DNA from: Thermosynechococcaceae cyanobacterium MS004 | GTDB lineage: Bacteria > Cyanobacteriota > Cyanobacteriia > Thermosynechococcales > Thermosynechococcaceae | Assembly: GCA_022402525.1 (NCBI GenBank) | Contig: JAKRSB010000089.1 | Location: forward strand, 1-64,000 | Length of the DNA: 64,000 bases | Direction of reading: 5' to 3' | Part shown: one piece after another, positions 29,616 to 41,505 of the stretch | How the letters are laid out: every line of letters begins with the position of its first letter | Position numbering within the stretch: the stretch's first letter is position 1 | The notes under the pieces: model-generated | The model's database searches: none | The model's input: the letters and a program-made list of their open reading frames with translations, nothing else | Told to the model about the DNA's origin: nothing | Position numbers and translations under genes: made by a program

Positions 29616-30371
29616 CTACTCAAGGGTCTGCTCAACACTCTGCTCAGCGGAGCGTACCACTTCCTGAAGGTTGGGCAGCTCCACCAGCTCTCGTTCTCGG
29701 TTCTTAATATTCAGGGGAATTACCAAAGGTTCTGGCAGATCAAGCCAACAGCTAGAAATCGGTAGGGTTTGGTCTAAATCTTCAAGAGGACGGGGGATGA
29801 CCATAACCGCATTGAGTTCACCAATGCGTTCCGCCTCCTGCATTCCAGCCTCAATAGCCACCGCCACATCCGCCACTGCGCCCCGAATAATAATGGTGCA
29901 GAGCCCCGCACCAATTTTTTCGTAAGCCGAAAGGTACACATCGGCTGACTTCAGCATCATGTCCGCAGCGCCCACCATCGCCGGAAATCCACGGGTTTCT
30001 AAAAGGCCGACCGCGAGGTGACTCAGCCGACTGGTGCCGCCATTTTGGGCAACCTGAGATAGCCTTGCGCTAATGGGCAAAACGGCCTCAAGATTGGGTA
30101 GGGGTCTGGCTAGGACTAGGCTGGAAACATACTGGCCAAACTGAAGGGCTGTTTCTTCGCCCGTTTTAACGGCAAGCCTCACGTCCGCAATGCCACCCCG
30201 CACGATCGCCGTGCAGAAGCCGCCTCCCGTTTTTTCATAGCCCACTAGCGTCACACCCGATGACTTCAGCATCATGTCTGCTGTACCAACGATCGCGGGG
30301 AAACTTTGGGTAGAAACTAACCCTAGTGCGGTTTCTTTCGTGCCTCGGCGGGTTGTCCGGTTTGATTGCAT
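29616..30371 (-). CDS. ccmO: carboxysome shell protein CcmO (tandem BMC)
   Basis: 251 residues from ATG 30371; TTG at 30383 is less likely because AGGG is well placed for the ATG. Two BMC domains in tandem: about 17-100 (ALGLVSTQSFPAIVGTADMM) and about 120-205 (AVGLLETRGFPAMVGAADMM), then a charged tail. It forms pseudohexameric trimers needed for shell assembly. Last gene of the ccm operon, 111 bases after ccmN. In some cyanobacteria ccmO is unlinked; here it is in place. Confidence 0.95.
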   Translation of the reverse strand: MQSNRTTRRGTKETALGLVSTQSFPAIVGTADMMLKSSGVTLVGYEKTGGGFCTAIVRGGIADVRLAVKTGEETALQFGQYVSSLVLARPLPNLEAVLPISARLSQVAQNGGTSRLSHLAVGLLETRGFPAMVGAADMMLKSADVYLSAYEKIGAGLCTIIIRGAVADVAVAIEAGMQEAERIGELNAVMVIPRPLEDLDQTLPISSCWLDLPEPLVIPLNIKNRERELVELPNLQEVVRSAEQSVEQTLE

Positions 30372-30482
30372 TGCCGCCCTCAAGGGTGATTCCTTCTCTC
30401 TACTCTACCTATATCTTTTGTTTACTGACTGCTTTTACATCAGGAAGAGAAGTAGTCCAGAATTTAAGTCTAGAAATGGGGT

Positions 30483-31175
30483 CTATGAATGGGAGTGAGC
30501 ACGATGGGGTAAAAGCGTGGTTAGTAAGCCATTCACGTAGTCTTTGCCATGAATGGTCGATGTTTTGCCTGCTTCGCTACCCTTAGCCCCTCCATTCAGA
30601 TTTGCCGGATTCGATGAAGCGACGGTTGAGGTTGATGGCCTAGTTAAGTCTGCACTGGTTGGATATACAAAGGTACTGCCAGAAGGATCGCCAGAGGGGT
30701 TGTCAGAGGAATTGCCAGAGGGATCACCAGAATGTGCTGATTCCTCCTGCCAAGGATCAGAAGATTGAGTGGCTTCTGGGGAAGCAGGTGAGGCGACAGG
30801 CTGCGGCACACTAGACTGGACAGAACGACTGCGATCGCCCAGCAGTGACCCTGGCGGAATTACCGCTCGACTGGCAACCGACCATTCCATCACGGTGCAG
30901 GATGTCCCCACGCAGGCATAGGCACCAATCACGCCGCTGCCCAGCATCAGGACTCCCGCTCCCAGATTCACCCCTTCCTGAATTTCTAGCGCGCCCCCAT
31001 AGGCATGGATGACCGTTCCCATGCCAACGCAGACGCTAGCTCCAATGACAATCCGGCTGCCTTCTTCAGCCTGTAGCAAAACCCCAGGCGCGATCGCTGC
31101 ACTCGGATGGATCACCACATCACCAATGCTGCGGCTTTGAGAATCATGCATGGCCTGAAGCGGCGGCAGAACCAT
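30483..31175 (-). CDS. ccmN: carboxysome assembly protein CcmN
   Basis: 230 residues. The N-terminal ~130 form a left-handed beta-helix of hexapeptide repeats (IHPSAAIAPGVLL, GVNLGAGVLMLGSGVIGAYA). A linker of about 80 residues rich in Ser, Pro and Asp (with GDPSG repeats) leads to the C-terminal encapsulation peptide (KDYVNGLLTTLLPHR), which binds the shell. The N-terminal part docks on CcmM, so CcmN ties the Rubisco-CcmM core to the shell. The linker repeats are encoded by a tandem DNA repeat. Confidence 0.94.
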   Translation of the reverse strand: MVLPPLQAMHDSQSRSIGDVVIHPSAAIAPGVLLQAEEGSRIVIGASVCVGMGTVIHAYGGALEIQEGVNLGAGVLMLGSGVIGAYACVGTSCTVMEWSVASRAVIPPGSLLGDRSRSVQSSVPQPVASPASPEATQSSDPWQEESAHSGDPSGNSSDNPSGDPSGSTFVYPTSADLTRPSTSTVASSNPANLNGGAKGSEAGKTSTIHGKDYVNGLLTTLLPHRAHSHS

Positions 31176-31215
31176 CAAACAAATAGCCTCTAGGGTTCAC
31201 AAACATATGCATGCC

Positions 31216-33624
31216 CTAAGGGCGCTGAATCACCAGCTCCGCCACGCGACGTTTTGCCTTCGCATCAATGCCAACCAGCCGGACATATTCTCCCTGATGC
31301 TCCGCAACACAGTTTTCTAGCGCCTTAAACACCTCGGCCTCACGGGTTGCCGAAATCGGCTTACAGCTATTCCAGGCACTAGCGCGAAAACGTCGCTTAT
31401 CCGCATGTTCCGTCCCAATCTTGTGCCCCTGCGCCAGCAACTGCCGCACTTGAGACACCACATCAGAACCCAGTGGCCCAGCCGGAGCGGCTTTACTGGG
31501 GGCATGATTTGCCGAGCCGTTGGCTGGAGCAGAAGCATAGGTGCCTGCTCCATTGCTTCTGGGGCCTTCCTTAGGGGCAGAGGTCTTCTCACCAGGACGC
31601 TGAACAATGACCTCTAGGACGCGCCGCTTGGCTTTCGGGTCAATGCCCACCAGCCGTACATAGTCACGGGCATGTTCCGTCACAAAAGACTCCAGCGCAG
31701 CCAACGCTTCTGAATCGCGCTTTGCCTTAATCGTCTTTCCTGTTGTCCATGCCCCAGAGCGGAAGTGGCGCTGATCAGCAAACTCCGTCGTGATTCGCAA
31801 TCCTTGCGCCAGAAGCTGGCGAATATGCTCCGCCACATCTGACCCAATGGGAACTGCGCTGTGGGTTGCGGCAACGGTCTCTGGAGCAGATCCGGAGCGG
31901 ATCTCAGGGCTAGAGACAGCCGCATTAGACACCGCCTGACTGCCAGGCCGCTGCACAATAATTTCAGCAACGCGCCGCTTAGCCTTGGCATCAATCCCAA
32001 TCAAACGCACATAGTCACCAGGATGCTCTGCCATACAGGCCTCTAGCCCAGCAATTACCTCTGCTTCCCGGGTAGACGCAATGGGGCGGCAGCTATTCCA
32101 GGCACTGGCTTTAAAGCGACGCTTGTCAGCGTGCTCCATCCCAATTTGGTACCCCTGCGCTAAAAGCTGACGGACTTGGGTTGCAATATCAGACCCCAAT
32201 CCGCTGGTTTTACTTGCTCCAGAAGACCCGCTGGAAGACTGGCTTGCAGCACGATTTGGCTGAGAGCTGCCCTGATCTTCAGGACGCTGGATGACCAGTT
32301 CCGCCACGCGCCGCTTTGCCTTAGGATCAATCGCCACAAGTCGAACATATTCCCCACGATGCTCAGCCATAGAGGCATCAAGGGCGGCTAAAACCTCTGG
32401 CTCACGTTTCGCACTAATGGCTTTACCCGTACTCCAGGCACTTGCCCGAAAGCGACGTTTGTCAGCATATTCTGTTGTAATACGGCAGCCCTGAGCCAAG
32501 AGCTGGCGAACCTGGCCGGCCACATCTGCACCCAAGGGAGCGGCGCTGGAAGAGGAACCGGATGGGGTTGGTGCATAGCTGGTGGTCGAAGCAGGTCGAG
32601 CGACAGAACCCCCAGCAGAACTTCCACGGCTCTCAGCATGCTGAACACCGTCAGGCCGCTGAATCACAAGCTCAGCTACGCGCCGCTTTGCTTTTGAATC
32701 AATCCCGACAAGTCGAACATACTCTCCAGAATGTTCGGCCATGCAGGCTTCCAGTGCTTTTAAGACTTCTGCCTCACGGCTGGCGGCAATGGGCTTGCAG
32801 CTATTCCAGGCGCTCGCTCGAAAGCGACGCTTGTCCGCATGTTCCGTGCCAATCTTGTAGCCCTGAATCAGGAGTTGACGCACCTGTTCAACGGCATCGG
32901 TACTGAGGGAAGTATTTCCTAGGGTCACGGCAGCAGATCCTCCATTAGAGCGGTATTCAGGGCGAACAAATTCAGAACTAACAAATTTAGGGGTGGCAGA
33001 CTTAGGATTAGCCGATTGGGCAGTCCTTACCTCCTCAGGGGGGCTGGTGTAGCCAGAGCGCAGTAGTTGATTAACGCCAACAATATGGCTGGCAAACGAA
33101 ATATCAGCAGGCTTTACATCCGAAAGGCGATCTGCCTCTAGCTGAGTGGTAATGACAGCCCCGGAAGGCACAAACTTACCAGGGGGGATTTCAACATCCT
33201 GAATTAAGGCGTGCATCATTACGATGGAGCCTTGCCCAACCCTGGCATTAAAAACCGTCGAGCGAAACCCAATGAAACAGTTGTCGCCCACGTAGGCGGG
33301 GCCGTGAATCAGGGCCATGTGGGTAATGGATGTATTGTTGCCCACCCAAACCGAGTATTCCTGCTCGTCGTCACCCAGGACTCGGCCTTGCGCTAGCCCG
33401 TGAATAACAACGCCATCCTGAATATTGGTGCTGGTACCAATGGCAAAAGTTCCCCCTTCATCCGCCCGAATGGTTACACCTGGAGCAACCATCACGTTGG
33501 CTCCAATCTGCACATCGCCAATGACTGTGGAGAATTCGTGGATATGAGCAGTTTTATCAACCTGAGGTTCGGCTAAGTGCTTAGACCAGGATTTTGTAGG
33601 AGCCGCAAGCCCTCGTGCAGCCAT
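31216..33624 (-). CDS. ccmM: carboxysome scaffold CcmM with five Rubisco-small-subunit-like modules
   Basis: 802 residues. A gamma-carbonic-anhydrase domain (about 1-210) keeps the three zinc-type histidines ([14 protein letters not shown]). Five SSUL modules follow at about 245-330, 365-455, 475-560, 590-680 and 715-802, each opening VRQLLxQG and each with (H/Y/F)ADxRxFR. Modules 1, 3 and 5 have a Cys pair 18 residues apart (NSCKP...EAC); modules 2 and 4 have STGK or TTGK and no pair. SSUL modules bind Rubisco and condense it. Five modules is at the high end for the family. A short form probably starts inside the gene. Confidence 0.95.
32926..32943 (-). promoter_or_regulatory. internal ribosome binding site and GTG start for short CcmM
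   Basis: On the minus strand GGAGGA (32943-32938) stands 9 bases before an in-frame GTG (32928-32926, about residue 233), exactly in the linker before SSUL module 1. This would give a ~570-residue form with all five modules and no carbonic-anhydrase domain, the equivalent of the short CcmM35/52 form known in other beta-cyanobacteria. Confidence 0.75.
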
Positions 33625-33906: not shown

Positions 33907-34206
33907 TTAATACTGTTCTCTCTTGTTGTAGAGCGAAAGCCCGTCCAGATTCACAGTATCAATAATGCCGACGACTAAGGCATCTAGGGGGCGATGCTCA
34001 CTCCCTGAAAGCTTGCGCGCTGCGCTGCCCCGACTCACCAGTACCCATTCGTTCACCCCTGCCCCCACGCTGTCAGCCGCGACTTCATACTTCGGAAGAA
34101 GTTGACCTTCTTCGTCGATGAACTGCACCAGTAAAAATTTGACGCCCGTCAGGCTCTGATCTTTCTGGGTGCTGACAACGGTGCCACGAACCTGAGCAAT
34201 CTGCAT
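33907..34206 (-). CDS. ccmL: carboxysome vertex protein CcmL
   Basis: 99 residues, the normal length. Starts MQIAQVRGTVVSTQKDQSLTG and contains VAADSVGAGVNEWVLVSRGSAAR, both conserved in the EutN/CcmL family. The protein forms pentamers that close the twelve shell vertices. It begins two bases after the ccmK1 stop, so translation is probably coupled to ccmK1. Confidence 0.96.
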   Translation of the reverse strand: MQIAQVRGTVVSTQKDQSLTGVKFLLVQFIDEEGQLLPKYEVAADSVGAGVNEWVLVSRGSAARKLSGSEHRPLDALVVGIIDTVNLDGLSLYNKREQY

Positions 34207-34208
34207 TC

Positions 34209-34550
34209 CTACGGTCTGCCAATCGGGCGAATGCCGCTAACGCTTTCGCGGAATTGCTCAACGTCTTCGGTGTAGCGAATCGGCAGCACATACTCCAGGT
34301 TTTCGTGAGGACGCGCGATGATGTGGGTGGACAGCACTTGCCCACCATTGACGCGGCGGACGGACTCAATGCCCGCAGCAACGGAGGCTTGCACTTCGGA
34401 GACATCTCCGCGCACGATGACGGTGACGCGGCCTGAGCCAATTTTTTCATACCCCACAAGGGTAACGCGCGCTGCTTTGACCATTGCGTCAGCGGCTTCA
34501 ACTACGGCAGGAAACCCTAGGGTTTCAATCATGCCCACTGCGATCGCCAT
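34209..34550 (-). CDS. ccmK1: carboxysome shell hexamer protein CcmK1
   Basis: 113 residues, one BMC domain ([41 protein letters not shown]) with the longer C-terminal tail ([11 protein letters not shown]) that distinguishes CcmK1 from CcmK2. The pore motif is the usual KIGSG. Builds the shell facets. It differs from the neighbour ccmK2 by few residues in the core, so the pair arose by tandem duplication. Confidence 0.94.
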
Positions 34551-34736: not shown

Positions 34737-35045
34737 TTACATTCTGAACTGCTCAACATCTTCGGTGTAGCGAATCGGCAGAACGTACTCCAGGTTTTCG
34801 TGAGGACGCGCAATGATATGCGTAGATAGCACTTCCCCACCATTCACCCGCTTGGCAGACTCAATGCCTGCGGCTAGAGACGCCTGAACCTCAGAAACAT
34901 CCCCCCGAATGATCACGGTGACGCGGCCTGAACCGATTTTCTCGTAGCCCACCAAGGTCACGCGTGCAGCCTTGACCATAGAGTCCGCAGCCTCAACAAC
35001 AGCGGGGAACCCTTTGGTTTCAAGCATTCCAACAGCAATTGACAT
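34737..35045 (-). CDS. ccmK2: carboxysome shell hexamer protein CcmK2
   Basis: 102 residues, single BMC domain ([38 protein letters not shown]), the usual length of CcmK2, the major shell facet protein. First gene of the operon; the order K2-K1-L-M-N-O is the standard one for beta-carboxysomes. The leader faces the divergent ndhF4 gene over a 724-bp spacer. Confidence 0.95.
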
Positions 35046-35769: not shown

Positions 35770-37605
35770 ATGAATGACATCCTCCTGCAAACGGGCTGGT
35801 GGGTGCCTTGCTATGGATTGCTGGGTGCTCTGCTGACGCTGCCTTGGTCGATGGGTTTGGTGAAGCGCACTGGGCCAAGACCCGCAGCCTATTTCAATAT
35901 GTTCATGACGCTTGTGGCGTTTATCCATGGAACCCTCCTTTTTCGGGCGACTTGGCACCATGAACCGGTTGAACTGGTTCTGCACTGGCTCAGCATTGCC
36001 GATCTAGACCTCACGCTCAACGTGGAGCTGTCTTCGGCCACGGTTGGGTCAATGGAGTTGGTAACTGGGCTGAGTATTCTGGCTCAGCTTTTTGCCCTTG
36101 GCTATATGGAGAAAGACTGGGCACTGGCTCGCTTTTATGCGCTGATGGGATTCTTTGAGGCGGCAATTAGCGGGTTGGCAATCAGCAATTCGCTGTTTTT
36201 GACCTATGCCTTTCTAGAAATGCTGACGCTCTCTACTTATCTACTGGTGGGATTTTGGTATGCGCAGCCCTTGGTGGTTACTGCGGCGCGGGATGCCTTT
36301 TTGACCAAGCGCGTGGGGGATATTTTGCTGCTGATGGGGGTGGTGACGCTCTCTGCGCTGGCGGGGAGTTTAGACTTCCCCGATCTCTATGACTGGACGG
36401 AGACGGCGCAGCTTTCCCCACTGGTGGCCAATTTATTGGGGCTGGCGCTGATTGCAGGGCCGATTGGGAAGTGCGCCCAGTTTCCGCTGCATTTGTGGCT
36501 GGATGAGGCGATGGAAGGGCCAAATCCAGCGTCAATTCTGCGAAATTCCGTGGTGGTGTCAGCGGGAGCCTATGTTTTAATTCAGCTTCAGCCGATTCTT
36601 AATTTGGCTCCAGTGGCGCTGATGACCCTGGTGGGGATTGGGATGATTACGGCGGTTGGGGAGTCTTTTGTGGCGATCGCCCAGGTGGATATCAAGCGGG
36701 CGTTTTCCCATTCCACGAGTGCCTATTTAGGTCTAGTGTTTATTGCAGTGGGGATGCAGTGGACAAATTTTGCGCTGCTGCTGCTGTTTGCCCACGCGAT
36801 CGCCAAGTCTCTGTTATTCATGAGCGTGGGCTCCATTGTCTTGACGACCAATAGCCAAGACCTAACGGAGTACGGGGGGCTATGGTCGCGGATGCCTGTC
36901 ACAACCTCAGCGTTTGTGGTGGGCTCCTTATCCCTGGTGGGGCTATTGCCCCTAGGGTGCTTTTGGGCTTTCGAGCGCGGCCTGGATATTTTCTGGTATG
37001 ACCAGCCGCTGTTGTCGGCCATTATTTTGCTGGTCAATGGCCTATCGGTCATTAGCTTGACGCGCATTTTTAGACTGGTCTTTCTAGGGCCACCCCAGCC
37101 CAAAACTCGGCGATCGCCAGAAGTCCCCTGGACAATGGCTGTACCCATGGTGTCGCTCATTATTGTGACCCTACTGTCGCCGCTTTTAATGCATAACCTA
37201 GGTCTTTTGCCCAACTGGGAATACATCAACAAAAGCGCTGGCATCACGCTAATTGCATCGGGGCTTATGGGATTAATCATTGGGGGAACGTTAGAGCTGC
37301 AAAAATCGAAGTCCCGCTCCATCAAAAAGCCCATTCGAGTCGTCCAGGATATGCTGTCCTACGACTTTTATATTGACCGACTTTACGGCTTTACTATTGT
37401 CTTTTTAGTCAGTTCACTGTCTCGGTTTATGGTTTGGTTTGATCGCTACATCGTAGATGGAGCAGTCAATGCCGTGGGATTTGCCTCAGTCTTTGGGGGG
37501 GAGAGTCTCAAATATAGCGCGTCGGGTCAATCGCAGTTTTATGTCCTCACAATCTTGATCGGTGTGAGCGTATTAGGCCTCCTCCTCACTTGGACCTTGT
37601 GGTAG
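35770..37605 (+). CDS. ndhF4: NDH-1 subunit NdhF4 (CO2 uptake)
   Basis: 611 residues, about 14 predicted transmembrane helices, antiporter-like subunit of NDH-1 complexes. Conserved features are AFLEMLTLSTYLLVGFW, KRVGDILLLMG, GPIGKCAQFPLHLWLDEAMEGPNPASI and AHAIAKSLLFMSVGSI. The numbering as the constitutive (MS') type rests on its partners: ndhD4 and cupB follow directly and no cupS is present. Proton pumping by this complex drives CO2 hydration at the thylakoid. ATG at 35770. Confidence 0.9.
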   Translation: MNDILLQTGWWVPCYGLLGALLTLPWSMGLVKRTGPRPAAYFNMFMTLVAFIHGTLLFRATWHHEPVELVLHWLSIADLDLTLNVELSSATVGSMELVTGLSILAQLFALGYMEKDWALARFYALMGFFEAAISGLAISNSLFLTYAFLEMLTLSTYLLVGFWYAQPLVVTAARDAFLTKRVGDILLLMGVVTLSALAGSLDFPDLYDWTETAQLSPLVANLLGLALIAGPIGKCAQFPLHLWLDEAMEGPNPASILRNSVVVSAGAYVLIQLQPILNLAPVALMTLVGIGMITAVGESFVAIAQVDIKRAFSHSTSAYLGLVFIAVGMQWTNFALLLLFAHAIAKSLLFMSVGSIVLTTNSQDLTEYGGLWSRMPVTTSAFVVGSLSLVGLLPLGCFWAFERGLDIFWYDQPLLSAIILLVNGLSVISLTRIFRLVFLGPPQPKTRRSPEVPWTMAVPMVSLIIVTLLSPLLMHNLGLLPNWEYINKSAGITLIASGLMGLIIGGTLELQKSKSRSIKKPIRVVQDMLSYDFYIDRLYGFTIVFLVSSLSRFMVWFDRYIVDGAVNAVGFASVFGGESLKYSASGQSQFYVLTILIGVSVLGLLLTWTLW

Positions 37606-37668
37606 CTGAGGATTGCAATCAGCGATCAAAAAGAGCAGCAGAATTAGCGGATAGAAGAGGAATTTTGG

Positions 37669-39201
37669 ATGTTAAGCGTACTGCTTTGGATTCCATTTAT
37701 AGGAGCGGTGGTGCTGATTGTCCTGCCGGGACTTCAGGACTCTCGACGCGCCCAGTGGGTTGCGCTGCTGTTGGCGACCTTCGCCTTTGCCTGGACCATT
37801 TTTCTAGGATTTCAGTTTGACTTTAGCGCAACAGGCTCCCAGTTTCAGGAGCGCCTGTCTTGGCTAGAAACGCTGGGGCTTCAGTATCAGGTGGGGGTAG
37901 ATGGTCTGTCTTACCCCTTGGTCGTGCTCAATAATTTGCTGACCTGTGTGGCAATCTATGGCTCTGACCCGGATAAAGAGCGGCCCCGATTTTACTACAG
38001 CCTACTTCTGCTGCTGAACTTTGGCGTAGTCGGCGCATTTTTATCTGAAAATCTGCTGCTGTTTTTCTTGTTCTACGAAATAGAGTTGATTCCGCTGTAT
38101 TTCCTCATTGCCATCTGGGGTGGGGCACGACGGGGCTATGCGGCCACTAAGTTTTTAATCTATACGGCTGTCTCTGGCATTGCGATTCTGGGGAGCTTTT
38201 TAGGGCTGGTCTGGCTGAGTGGTGCGGAGAGTTTTGCCCTCCAGCGCGACCTTGCCGAAACGCTGACGCTGACCCAGCAGCTTATTTTACTGGGTGGGCT
38301 GCTGCTGGGCTTTGGCATTAAAATCCCCCTCGTGCCCCTGCATACCTGGCTGCCCGATGCTCACGTTGAAGCCTCCACGCCTGTCTCTGTCCTTTTGGCG
38401 GGGGTACTGCTGAAGCTGGGCACTTACGGGCTGCTGCGCTTTGGGCTGGGCCTATTCCCAGAAGCCTGGTCTGTGCTAGCGCCCTATCTGGCCACTTGGG
38501 CGGTGGTGAGCGTCCTGTACGGGGCATTAACTGCGATCGCCCAAACCGACATGAAAAAGATGGTGGCCTATAGCTCAGTAGGGCACATGGGGTACATTTT
38601 GCTGGCGGCAGCGGCCAATACGCCCTTGAGCCTCGTTGCCGTCATTGTGCAGATGATTAGTCACGGACTCATCTCTGCACTGCTCTTTTTGCTCGTGGGC
38701 GTGGTGTACACAAAAACAGGCACCCGCGACTTGACGGTGCTGCGCGGTTTACTAAACCCAGAGCGCGGCTTACCTCTGATTGGTAGCCTGATGGTGGTGG
38801 GCGTGATGGCCAGTGCTGGTATTCCGGGGATGGTGGGCTTTATTTCAGAGTTTTTGGTGTTTCGGAGCAGTTTGCCCGTGTTTCCAGTTCAGACGCTGCT
38901 CTGTATGATCGGCACCGGACTGACCGCTGTGTATTTTCTGCTGCTGGTTAACCGCGCCTTCTTTGGTCGTCTCATCACCCGCTCCGATGGTAAGGTGGTG
39001 ACACTGGCTCCCGTTATTTGGCGTGAGCGATCGCCAGCAATTCTCTTAGCCATCCTGATTGTTGTGTTTGGGCTACAGCCCAACTGGCTTGTGGACTGGA
39101 CAAGGGCAACTATTGCAGACTTTTCAGGTTCGCCAGCAGTACTGGCCCAACGAACAACCCTTCCAGAAGCTGACTTGGCAAGGGCTATCACACTGCATTA
39201 G
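37669..39201 (+). CDS. ndhD4: NDH-1 subunit NdhD4 (CO2 uptake)
   Basis: 510 residues, 13-14 transmembrane helices. Conserved NdhD blocks are YQVGVDGLSYPLVVLNNLL, FYEIELIPLYFLIAIWGG, GIKIPLVPLHTWLPDAHVEA and TDMKKMVAYSSVGHMGYI. Sixty-three bases after ndhF4 with the same orientation. The pair forms the distal proton channels of the NDH-1MS' complex. ATG at 37669 with GAGGAA upstream. Confidence 0.93.
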   Translation: MLSVLLWIPFIGAVVLIVLPGLQDSRRAQWVALLLATFAFAWTIFLGFQFDFSATGSQFQERLSWLETLGLQYQVGVDGLSYPLVVLNNLLTCVAIYGSDPDKERPRFYYSLLLLLNFGVVGAFLSENLLLFFLFYEIELIPLYFLIAIWGGARRGYAATKFLIYTAVSGIAILGSFLGLVWLSGAESFALQRDLAETLTLTQQLILLGGLLLGFGIKIPLVPLHTWLPDAHVEASTPVSVLLAGVLLKLGTYGLLRFGLGLFPEAWSVLAPYLATWAVVSVLYGALTAIAQTDMKKMVAYSSVGHMGYILLAAAANTPLSLVAVIVQMISHGLISALLFLLVGVVYTKTGTRDLTVLRGLLNPERGLPLIGSLMVVGVMASAGIPGMVGFISEFLVFRSSLPVFPVQTLLCMIGTGLTAVYFLLLVNRAFFGRLITRSDGKVVTLAPVIWRERSPAILLAILIVVFGLQPNWLVDWTRATIADFSGSPAVLAQRTTLPEADLARAITLH

Positions 39202-39281
39202 CAATCCGTCGCAATCCATCATTAGCAATCCATCGGTCATTTGACGTTCGTTATATCAGATGCGTTCTGACCCTCCTCGCC

Positions 39282-40418
39282 ATGCTAGAGACACCCACCG
39301 CAAGACACCCTTCCACCGCCTACATTGAGCGAATACTCAGCGGCAAGACGCTTTTGCCCGATACGCCAGAAAATACCCTAGAGGTTGTGGGCATTCTCAA
39401 AAGCTACGGCGTCGTGATAGGGGCCTATTCCAAAAATTTACTTTACATTGCGGAACATCAGTTTTTAGAGCTGTTCCCCTTTTTTAAGTACTTCAACGGC
39501 AAGACCAGCTTGAGTGCCCTACTGCGCCACTGGTTCCACGATCGCATCAACTACGAGTACGCCGAGTACTGCATGAAAGTGATGCTTTGGCATGGGGGTG
39601 GCGGACTCGATAGCTACCTAGATTCTGGCGAGTTCAAACTTTTGGCACGCAAAGCCATTGATGCCAAAATCCGAAATAACCCCTTGATTCGCAGTCTCAA
39701 TCAAGTCTTTCCTGACTTCTTACCAGAGCAAATCCGGCAGTTTGTCTACTACAGCGTCCTGGGCCAGTTTTGGGACGTCATGAGCGAACTGTTCCTGACC
39801 CTAGCTGACCGATACGAGCAGGGTAAAATCACTTCCATTCCAGATGTGGTGGCGCACATTAAAGCAGGACTGGTCGCAGCAGCAGGCAACCCCATCACCT
39901 ACAGCGTTGACATCGGCGGACAGTCCTATGACCTGATTCCAAAGTCTGCGGGGTTAATCTTTATTTCGGATGCCGCCGTTCCCTACGTGGAGGCTATTTT
40001 CTTTAGAGGGACACCTTTCCCCGGTACGGTATCTTACAACGCTCAGGCGCAGCAAATTTCCCCAGACCCAGGACGATTTGCCTACGGCGCACTTTATGCT
40101 GACCCGCTGCCCGTTGGCGGTGCGGGCATTCCGCCCACGCTGCTCATGCAGGACATGCGTCACTATCTGCCTGAGTCTCTACACCGCCTCTATCAAAATA
40201 CAACTCGGAAAGAGGCAGATTTGCTGATTAAAATCTGCGAAAGCTTCCAGAAGTCGATGTTTTGCGTCACCAATGCAGCCATCTTAGGGCTTATGCCCCA
40301 CGATTTAGAAACCACCGACCCCAAAGAACAGAAAGTAAACCAACACTACCTCGAAGGCTGGATGGATCGCCTCCGCACCTCTCAGCTTGAAACGGTACAA
40401 ACCAACTCGCTTCAATAA
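39282..40418 (+). CDS. cupB: CO2 hydration protein CupB (ChpX)
   Basis: 378 residues of the CO2 hydration family. Recognised blocks are AEHQFLELFPFFKYFNGK, HDRINYEYAEYCMKVMLWHGGGGLD, and GTPFPGTVSYNAQAQQISPDPGRFAYGALYADPLP. No signal peptide; it sits on the cytosolic side of the NDH-1 complex as a carbonic-anhydrase-like unit. CupB rather than CupA is inferred from length (CupA is longer) and lack of a cupS gene. Follows ndhD4 by 80 bases. Confidence 0.9.
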   Translation: MLETPTARHPSTAYIERILSGKTLLPDTPENTLEVVGILKSYGVVIGAYSKNLLYIAEHQFLELFPFFKYFNGKTSLSALLRHWFHDRINYEYAEYCMKVMLWHGGGGLDSYLDSGEFKLLARKAIDAKIRNNPLIRSLNQVFPDFLPEQIRQFVYYSVLGQFWDVMSELFLTLADRYEQGKITSIPDVVAHIKAGLVAAAGNPITYSVDIGGQSYDLIPKSAGLIFISDAAVPYVEAIFFRGTPFPGTVSYNAQAQQISPDPGRFAYGALYADPLPVGGAGIPPTLLMQDMRHYLPESLHRLYQNTTRKEADLLIKICESFQKSMFCVTNAAILGLMPHDLETTDPKEQKVNQHYLEGWMDRLRTSQLETVQTNSLQ

Positions 40419-40431
40419 CCAGTTCATTAAG

Positions 40432-41505
40432 ATGGCCATCTCTTCCCTGCACGATCCGCTGCGGTCTCTTGAGGAGGGACGCTGGTTTAAGTTAATTTGC
40501 GGGGCAAGCTTTCAGAACCTCCCCGCGATCCGCACGCTTGCCTTGGTTTATTCCTTGGCGGGAGCAGACTGCATTGACGTTGCGGCCGACCCCGCCGTAA
40601 TTCATGCTGCGCGCGAGGGGATCACCGCTGCCCAGAAGTTACAGCCTGTTGTTCAACCCGTTTGGCTCATGGTGAGCCTTAATGATGGAGAAGATCCGCA
40701 CTTCCGCAAGGCTACGTTTGACCCGCAGCGCTGCCCCTCAGACTGCTCCCGCCCCTGCGTCTCAATCTGCCCCGCTCAGGCGATCGCCTTTTCTGAACAC
40801 CATTCAGGCGTCCTTGAAGAACGCTGCTATGGCTGTGGACGCTGCCTGCCCATCTGTCCGATTGAGCAAATCACAACGCGATCGCACCCTGCAACCCTAG
40901 AAGCCGTAGCGCCTTTGATTCGTTCGGGTCAAGTCAATGCCCTAGAGCTTCATACCCAGGTCGGGCATGAAGAAGCGTTTCAGCAGCTTTGGCTTAGGGT
41001 ACAGCCCCTTCTCTCCGACTTAAAAATCCTGTCTATTAGCTGCCCTGAAGCCAGTGGCATACTGGACTACCTGACCTATCTTCATCAATTAATAGCCCCC
41101 CTTCCCTGCCCACTGATTTGGCAAACCGATGGACGCCCCATGAGCGGAGATATTGGAGATGGTGCAACACGGGCAACCCTGCGGTATGGAGAAGCTGTCC
41201 TGCGATCGCCCTTACCCGGCTTCGTACAGCTTGCAGGGGGCACCAACGCCCACACAATTCTGAAGATTAAATCCCGCGATCAGAATGCAGAGCATCCGAC
41301 TTCAACCCTATCGGGCATTGCGTTTGGTAGCTATGCCCGAAGTTTACTCCAGGGGCTACAGTCAAAACTAGAGGCTCAGCCGCACTCTTCCTACCACCTA
41401 GAAGACTATCCGGCTCTGCTCACTGAAGGACTAGAGGCTGCCCGTCAGCTCGTTGAACCGCTAAAGCACATTTATTCACTCAACCCTGGGAAGGGAGCAG
41501 CCTGA
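40432..41505 (+). CDS. ldpA: light-dependent period protein LdpA (Fe-S clock input)
   Basis: 357 residues from ATG 40432, 13 bases after cupB; the frame is open to 40387 but overlaps cupB. N-terminal FKLICGASFQNLPAIRTLAL and AGADCIDVAADPAVI are typical. Ferredoxin-type clusters: CPSDCSRPCVSICP and CYGCGRCLPICP around residues 101-145, giving two 4Fe-4S sites. LdpA senses redox state and feeds light quality into the Kai clock. Placement behind the CO2-uptake genes suggests cotranscription. Confidence 0.9.
   Translation: MAISSLHDPLRSLEEGRWFKLICGASFQNLPAIRTLALVYSLAGADCIDVAADPAVIHAAREGITAAQKLQPVVQPVWLMVSLNDGEDPHFRKATFDPQRCPSDCSRPCVSICPAQAIAFSEHHSGVLEERCYGCGRCLPICPIEQITTRSHPATLEAVAPLIRSGQVNALELHTQVGHEEAFQQLWLRVQPLLSDLKILSISCPEASGILDYLTYLHQLIAPLPCPLIWQTDGRPMSGDIGDGATRATLRYGEAVLRSPLPGFVQLAGGTNAHTILKIKSRDQNAEHPTSTLSGIAFGSYARSLLQGLQSKLEAQPHSSYHLEDYPALLTEGLEAARQLVEPLKHIYSLNPGKGAA

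Follow-up and report, generated by a model that had tools for sequence, protein, structure and literature searches.

A five-module CcmM with alternating cysteine-pair and cysteine-free SSUL modules in a Thermosynechococcaceae cyanobacterium

Redox tuning of the carboxysome protein CcmM is thought to make a functional compartment out of the dense pre-carboxysome. The closest described systems are the CcmM proteins of Synechococcus elongatus PCC 7942 and Synechocystis sp. PCC 6803. In S. elongatus, a gamma-carbonic-anhydrase-like (gammaCAL) domain is followed by three SSUL modules, which crosslink Rubisco and attach to it in a groove between two RbcL dimers (PMC8580825). Cysteine pairs are present in SSUL1 (C261/C279) and SSUL2 (C377/C395) and absent from the third module, and a short isoform, M35, arises from an internal start. 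The apparent KD of M35 for Rubisco is ~0.2 uM in the reduced and ~1 uM in the oxidized state, whereas Rubisco binding by the full-length trimer is unaffected by redox state; oxidation promotes homodemixing of full-length CcmM via the SSUL1 and SSUL2 disulfides (PMC8580825). The contact between SSUL and gammaCAL needs the same patch as the contact with Rubisco (PMC8580825). Synechocystis CcmM has four modules in block order, and disulfides were detected in SSUL3 and SSUL4, with Em values of -271 and -254 mV (PMC13214033).

The CcmM described here resembles the S. elongatus protein in its gammaCAL domain and SSUL modules, its predicted internal start, and its combination of modules with cysteine pairs spaced by 18 residues and modules with none. 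It shares with the Synechocystis protein the mixing of module types. It differs from both in number and order, with five modules arranged ABABA (A, both cysteines; B, neither) as compared to AAB in S. elongatus. The gene lies in a stretch of 64,000 nucleotides (hereafter the window; contig JAKRSB010000089.1) from a 4.93 Mb draft genome of 150 contigs that is rated 100% complete.

The ccmM gene (31216..33624, minus strand) opens with ATG at 33624 and encodes 802 residues, comprising the gammaCAL domain, a linker and the five SSUL modules. A Pfam search of the protein returned Hexapep at the N-terminus and five RuBisCO_small (PF00101) stretches, in agreement with the preliminary description of this DNA as a five-module CcmM, and the NCBIfam CcmM model NF053794 matched with 958.9 bits (cut-off 550). 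The gene context on the same strand is ccmK-ccmK-ccmL-ccmM-ccmN-ccmO. Two copies of ccmK (34737..35045 and 34209..34550, both minus strand, PF00936) and ccmL (33907..34206, minus strand, PF03319) precede the gene; ccmN (30483..31178, minus strand; 151 bits to NF053793, cut-off 100; the listed TTG start is uncertain) and ccmO with its double BMC domain (29616..30383, minus strand) follow. The NF053794 match far above its cut-off and the ccm neighbours together identify the product as CcmM, on sequence grounds a standard protein of the beta-carboxysome.

All eight cysteines of the protein are at residues 116, 276, 294, 380, 512, 530, 754 and 772. Six of these form three pairs with a spacing of 18 in every case: Cys276/Cys294 in module 1 (32653..32901), Cys512/Cys530 in module 3 (31945..32193) and Cys754/Cys772 in module 5 (31219..31467), all on the minus strand. 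In each of these A modules both cysteines occupy the SSUL1 positions; those of module 1 coincide with the pair of S. elongatus SSUL1 in an alignment with 6hba. The B modules 2 (32281..32529, minus strand) and 4 (31594..31842, minus strand) have Gly at the first cysteine site and Ser or Phe, respectively, at the second; Cys380 of module 2 is unpaired and lies at another site. Alignment of the five modules thus confirmed the pairs in modules 1, 3 and 5 and their absence from 2 and 4. Two details of the preliminary description needed correction. The NSCKP motif that it gave for A modules is indeed replaced by STGK in module 2 and TTGK in module 4, but reads NSCRP in module 3. The spacing of 18 that it compared to the first S. 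elongatus module does match SSUL1, but is found in SSUL2 as well (PMC8580825). The flexible linkers between the modules are 29-42 residues long and rich in Gly, Ser and Ala.

The B modules are predicted to keep the SSUL fold and most of the residues that contact Rubisco. Module 4, the most diverged of the five, yielded a predicted structure with a pLDDT of 90 and TM scores of 0.92 to 6MR1 and 0.93 to the S. elongatus module 6hbb. 6MR1 is a solved cysteine-free (B-type) CcmM module with the SSUL fold from another genus, probably Thermosynechococcus because its motif matches module 1 of Thermosynechococcus CcmM; when the two structures are aligned, it shares 47% identity with module 4. The contact patch DKRRFR is fully kept in module 2, while in module 4 positions 250 and 252 (S. 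elongatus SSUL1 numbering) are occupied by Gln and His, and the latter substitution suggests that it may bind Rubisco more weakly. None of the A and B modules examined departs from Arg251, and Arg252 is kept in nearly all modules, including 165 of the 171 B modules across the phylum.

The gammaCAL domain (approximately residues 1-193; 33046..33624, minus strand) matches the CcmM gammaCAL structures 3kwc and 7o4z with E-values below 1e-70 and has His75, His102 and His107. A cysteine pair of the BP-1 Cys194/Cys200 type is absent here (window positions 33025-33080). In T. elongatus BP-1 this pair, at the gammaCAL C-terminus, forms the activating disulfide. Its absence suggests that the domain in the window is not a redox-activated carbonic anhydrase. 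The C-terminus of the domain reads SGYTSPPEE here and SGYRC..ECI in two relatives from the same genus (G009 and G010), which keep the pair. A short isoform with the five SSUL modules and no gammaCAL domain is likely, by analogy with CcmM35, as a GTG at codon 233 (32926..32928, minus strand) just before module 1 is preceded by a predicted ribosome-binding site, GGAGG (32939..32943, minus strand), 10 nt upstream, and motif and spacing are identical in G009 and G010. By the same criterion, comparable start motifs before module 1 were found in 41 of 130 CcmM proteins from a wider survey and in 21 of 260 control stretches.

For this survey, SSUL modules were extracted by HMM from 80 contig loci, the genomes of the family and about 85 more genomes across the phylum. 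Removal of proteins more than 90% identical in their modules left 130 CcmM proteins with 494 modules, of which 269 were A, 171 B, 36 had only the first cysteine (c) and 18 only the second (d). Of the 494 modules, 440 thus had both cysteines or neither (Fisher p 2e-73, a value that ignores the kinship of the sequences). Other alignment columns covary with class. Proline at column 38, two residues after the first cysteine, occurs in 227/269 A and 11/171 B modules, and histidine is the residue at column 22 of 248/269 A modules and of 77/171 B modules, with tyrosine nearly as common (75) in the latter class. Modules 1 to 5 of the window follow these columns, with P-A-P-T-P at column 38 and H-Y-H-F-H at column 22. 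Every CcmM protein (130/130) contained an A module, 121 mixed A with non-A modules and nine were all-A. The two classes that the preliminary description had proposed as functional therefore hold up as classes of sequence, and mixing A with other modules is the rule among CcmM proteins rather than a novelty of the present gene. Separate from the main CcmM, three genomes encode additional gammaCAL proteins of 309-324 residues with one SSUL module (L116/L212 in G011, L117/L213 in G001, L196 in G030).

Only the strict five-module ABABA order is unusual in the present CcmM. The idea that homologues share the alternation was not borne out, as four-module proteins favour blocks: strict alternation of A and non-A modules was seen in 8 of 87, as compared to 22 expected from shuffles within proteins. 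Among 33 three-module proteins, 8 alternated (10 expected), and among nine five-module proteins only the present one did (0.4 expected). Because the proteins share ancestry and the sample is biased towards relatives of the window, these counts are descriptive only. Given three A and two B modules, ABABA arises by chance in one of ten orders. Among named loci, BBAA prevails in Chroococcales and Pleurocapsales, AABB and its variants in Nostocales, A-first blocks in Leptolyngbyales and BAcA in Spirulinales. Acaryochloris-type genomes of the same family (g2) also have five SSUL modules, but mostly AAAAA and in a separate module clade. Same-genus relatives have ABA (G009, L214) and ABBA (G010, L215). 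Being rarer than in shuffled four-module proteins, alternation was rejected as a phylum-wide pattern and is not a general design.

How the order arose was addressed with module trees that left out the cysteine columns and, with about 83 columns, were mostly weakly supported. Modules of the genus together with those of G016 formed one group against two Acaryochloris-type genomes (100/99). Within the genus, the CcmM proteins of G009 and G010 resemble the present one in having outer A and inner B modules of the same module clade, but differ from it in having three and four modules. B modules of the genus, five in all, clustered together (92/86 in one tree, 95/82 in another). The two of G010 (L215 modules 2 and 3) were sisters (97/91) and have an exact repeat of 32 bases in common, which points to a more recent duplication of the B module alone. 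Window modules 1 and 3 did not group, and module 3 joined the third module of G009 weakly (68/69). A tree built from module DNA gave little resolution. The preliminary description had read the order as duplication of an A-B pair. As a recent event this is ruled out by third-position identities of only 0.30-0.49 between window modules, which make any module duplication old. An older pair duplication, of A-B or B-A, is possible: AU tests of constrained groupings neither supported nor rejected it (modules 1+3, p 0.22; 2+4, p 0.39; 3+5, p 0.32). An expansion specific to the window, with all five modules in one clade, was marginally rejected (p 0.04). The simplest reading is that one B type arose in the lineage of the genus and that modules were then gained and lost around it. 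A genome search at the level of the order added nothing beyond the family.

The explanation that we favour, and consider rather likely, is that the gene encodes a standard CcmM whose A modules weaken on oxidation while its B modules hold, in an order specific to the lineage. By analogy with S. elongatus, full-length CcmM would trimerize and link Rubisco to carbonic anhydrase and CcmN, and the short isoform would crosslink Rubisco. As long as they are in the reducing cytosol, modules 1 to 5 would all hold Rubisco. As the carboxysome interior oxidizes, modules 1, 3 and 5, which are probably redox-tunable and would lose Rubisco affinity on oxidation, in keeping with the work on S. elongatus and Synechocystis (PMC8580825, PMC13214033), would form disulfides and their grip would weaken. 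We infer from the SSUL fold, the mostly conserved contact residues and the S. elongatus analogy that modules 2 and 4 are constitutive binders. As these would keep binding Rubisco after oxidation, the condensate would loosen rather than dissolve. The tuning may be limited to the short isoform, as the full-length S. elongatus trimer binds equally in both redox states. The ABABA order itself would be one outcome of module duplication and loss within a genus that also shows ABA and ABBA, and not a conserved design.

The same observations could be read differently. B modules might have lost their cysteines through relaxed constraint once other modules carried the switch, with little difference in function between A and B. 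This would fit the 54 single-cysteine modules, the long branch of module 4 and the at least 29 class changes on a large module tree (FastTree, 499 rows), although the starred branches of that tree force only two changes and its support is too weak for a firm count of B origins. It fits less well with a mixture retained in 121 of 130 proteins, with only nine all-A, and with further columns that covary with class, and we regard it as unlikely, if still worth weighing. Substitutions at positions 250 and 252 of module 4 could instead indicate that B modules contact Rubisco more weakly or have another main partner such as gammaCAL, which in S. elongatus is contacted through the same patch (PMC8580825); alternation would then separate two kinds of contact. 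The complete patch of module 2 and the near-constant Arg252 of B modules across the phylum make this improbable.

If selection had favoured the spacing of switchable and constant binders along the chain, with duplication of an A-B unit producing it, this would account for ABABA and for the alternating or near-alternating orders in a few other proteins (BABA in L019, ABAB in L023, Spirulina-type BAcA), and the AU tests did not reject the groupings of modules 1+3 and 2+4. Yet four-module proteins alternate less than their shuffled versions, the nearest relatives have ABA and ABBA, and module 3 leans, weakly, towards the third module of G009 and not towards module 1; we give this explanation very little credence. 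Tandem modules in a 150-contig draft also raise the question of an assembly artefact in a repetitive gene. Misassembly is nevertheless hardly credible, because the longest exact repeat inside ccmM is only 17 bases; pairwise DNA identity between modules is 61-75% and the gene is a single open frame of the right length.

Beyond the favoured reading for this gene, the survey yields a testable rule, that CcmM is nearly always mixed and always has at least one cysteine pair. We found no published survey stating near-universal mixing and a constant A module, in a search that did not cover the original 2019 Nature paper on CcmM/Rubisco condensates. It is tempting to propose, though we do so tentatively and with some doubt, that beta-carboxysomes in general are under selection to equip each CcmM with one or more switchable modules and, in most cases, with one or more that lack the pair, the two classes having been swapped many times along the chain; ABABA would then be an extreme arrangement. 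The present gene and its ABA and ABBA relatives provide natural variants for testing the mixing rule.

On the opposite strand beside the ccm genes, window positions 35770-41505 (plus strand) hold ndhF3-type and ndhD-type genes, the former model matching with 962 bits, followed by ORFs of 378 and 372 residues; this cluster probably encodes a CO2-uptake NDH-1. The sole beta-carbonic anhydrase (PF00484) of the genome, a frame of 284 residues (G000:C124:3692-4162, L216), has the C-terminal end PQQAARIYRGSKR, which is similar to the C-terminal peptide of CcaA that docks on CcmM.
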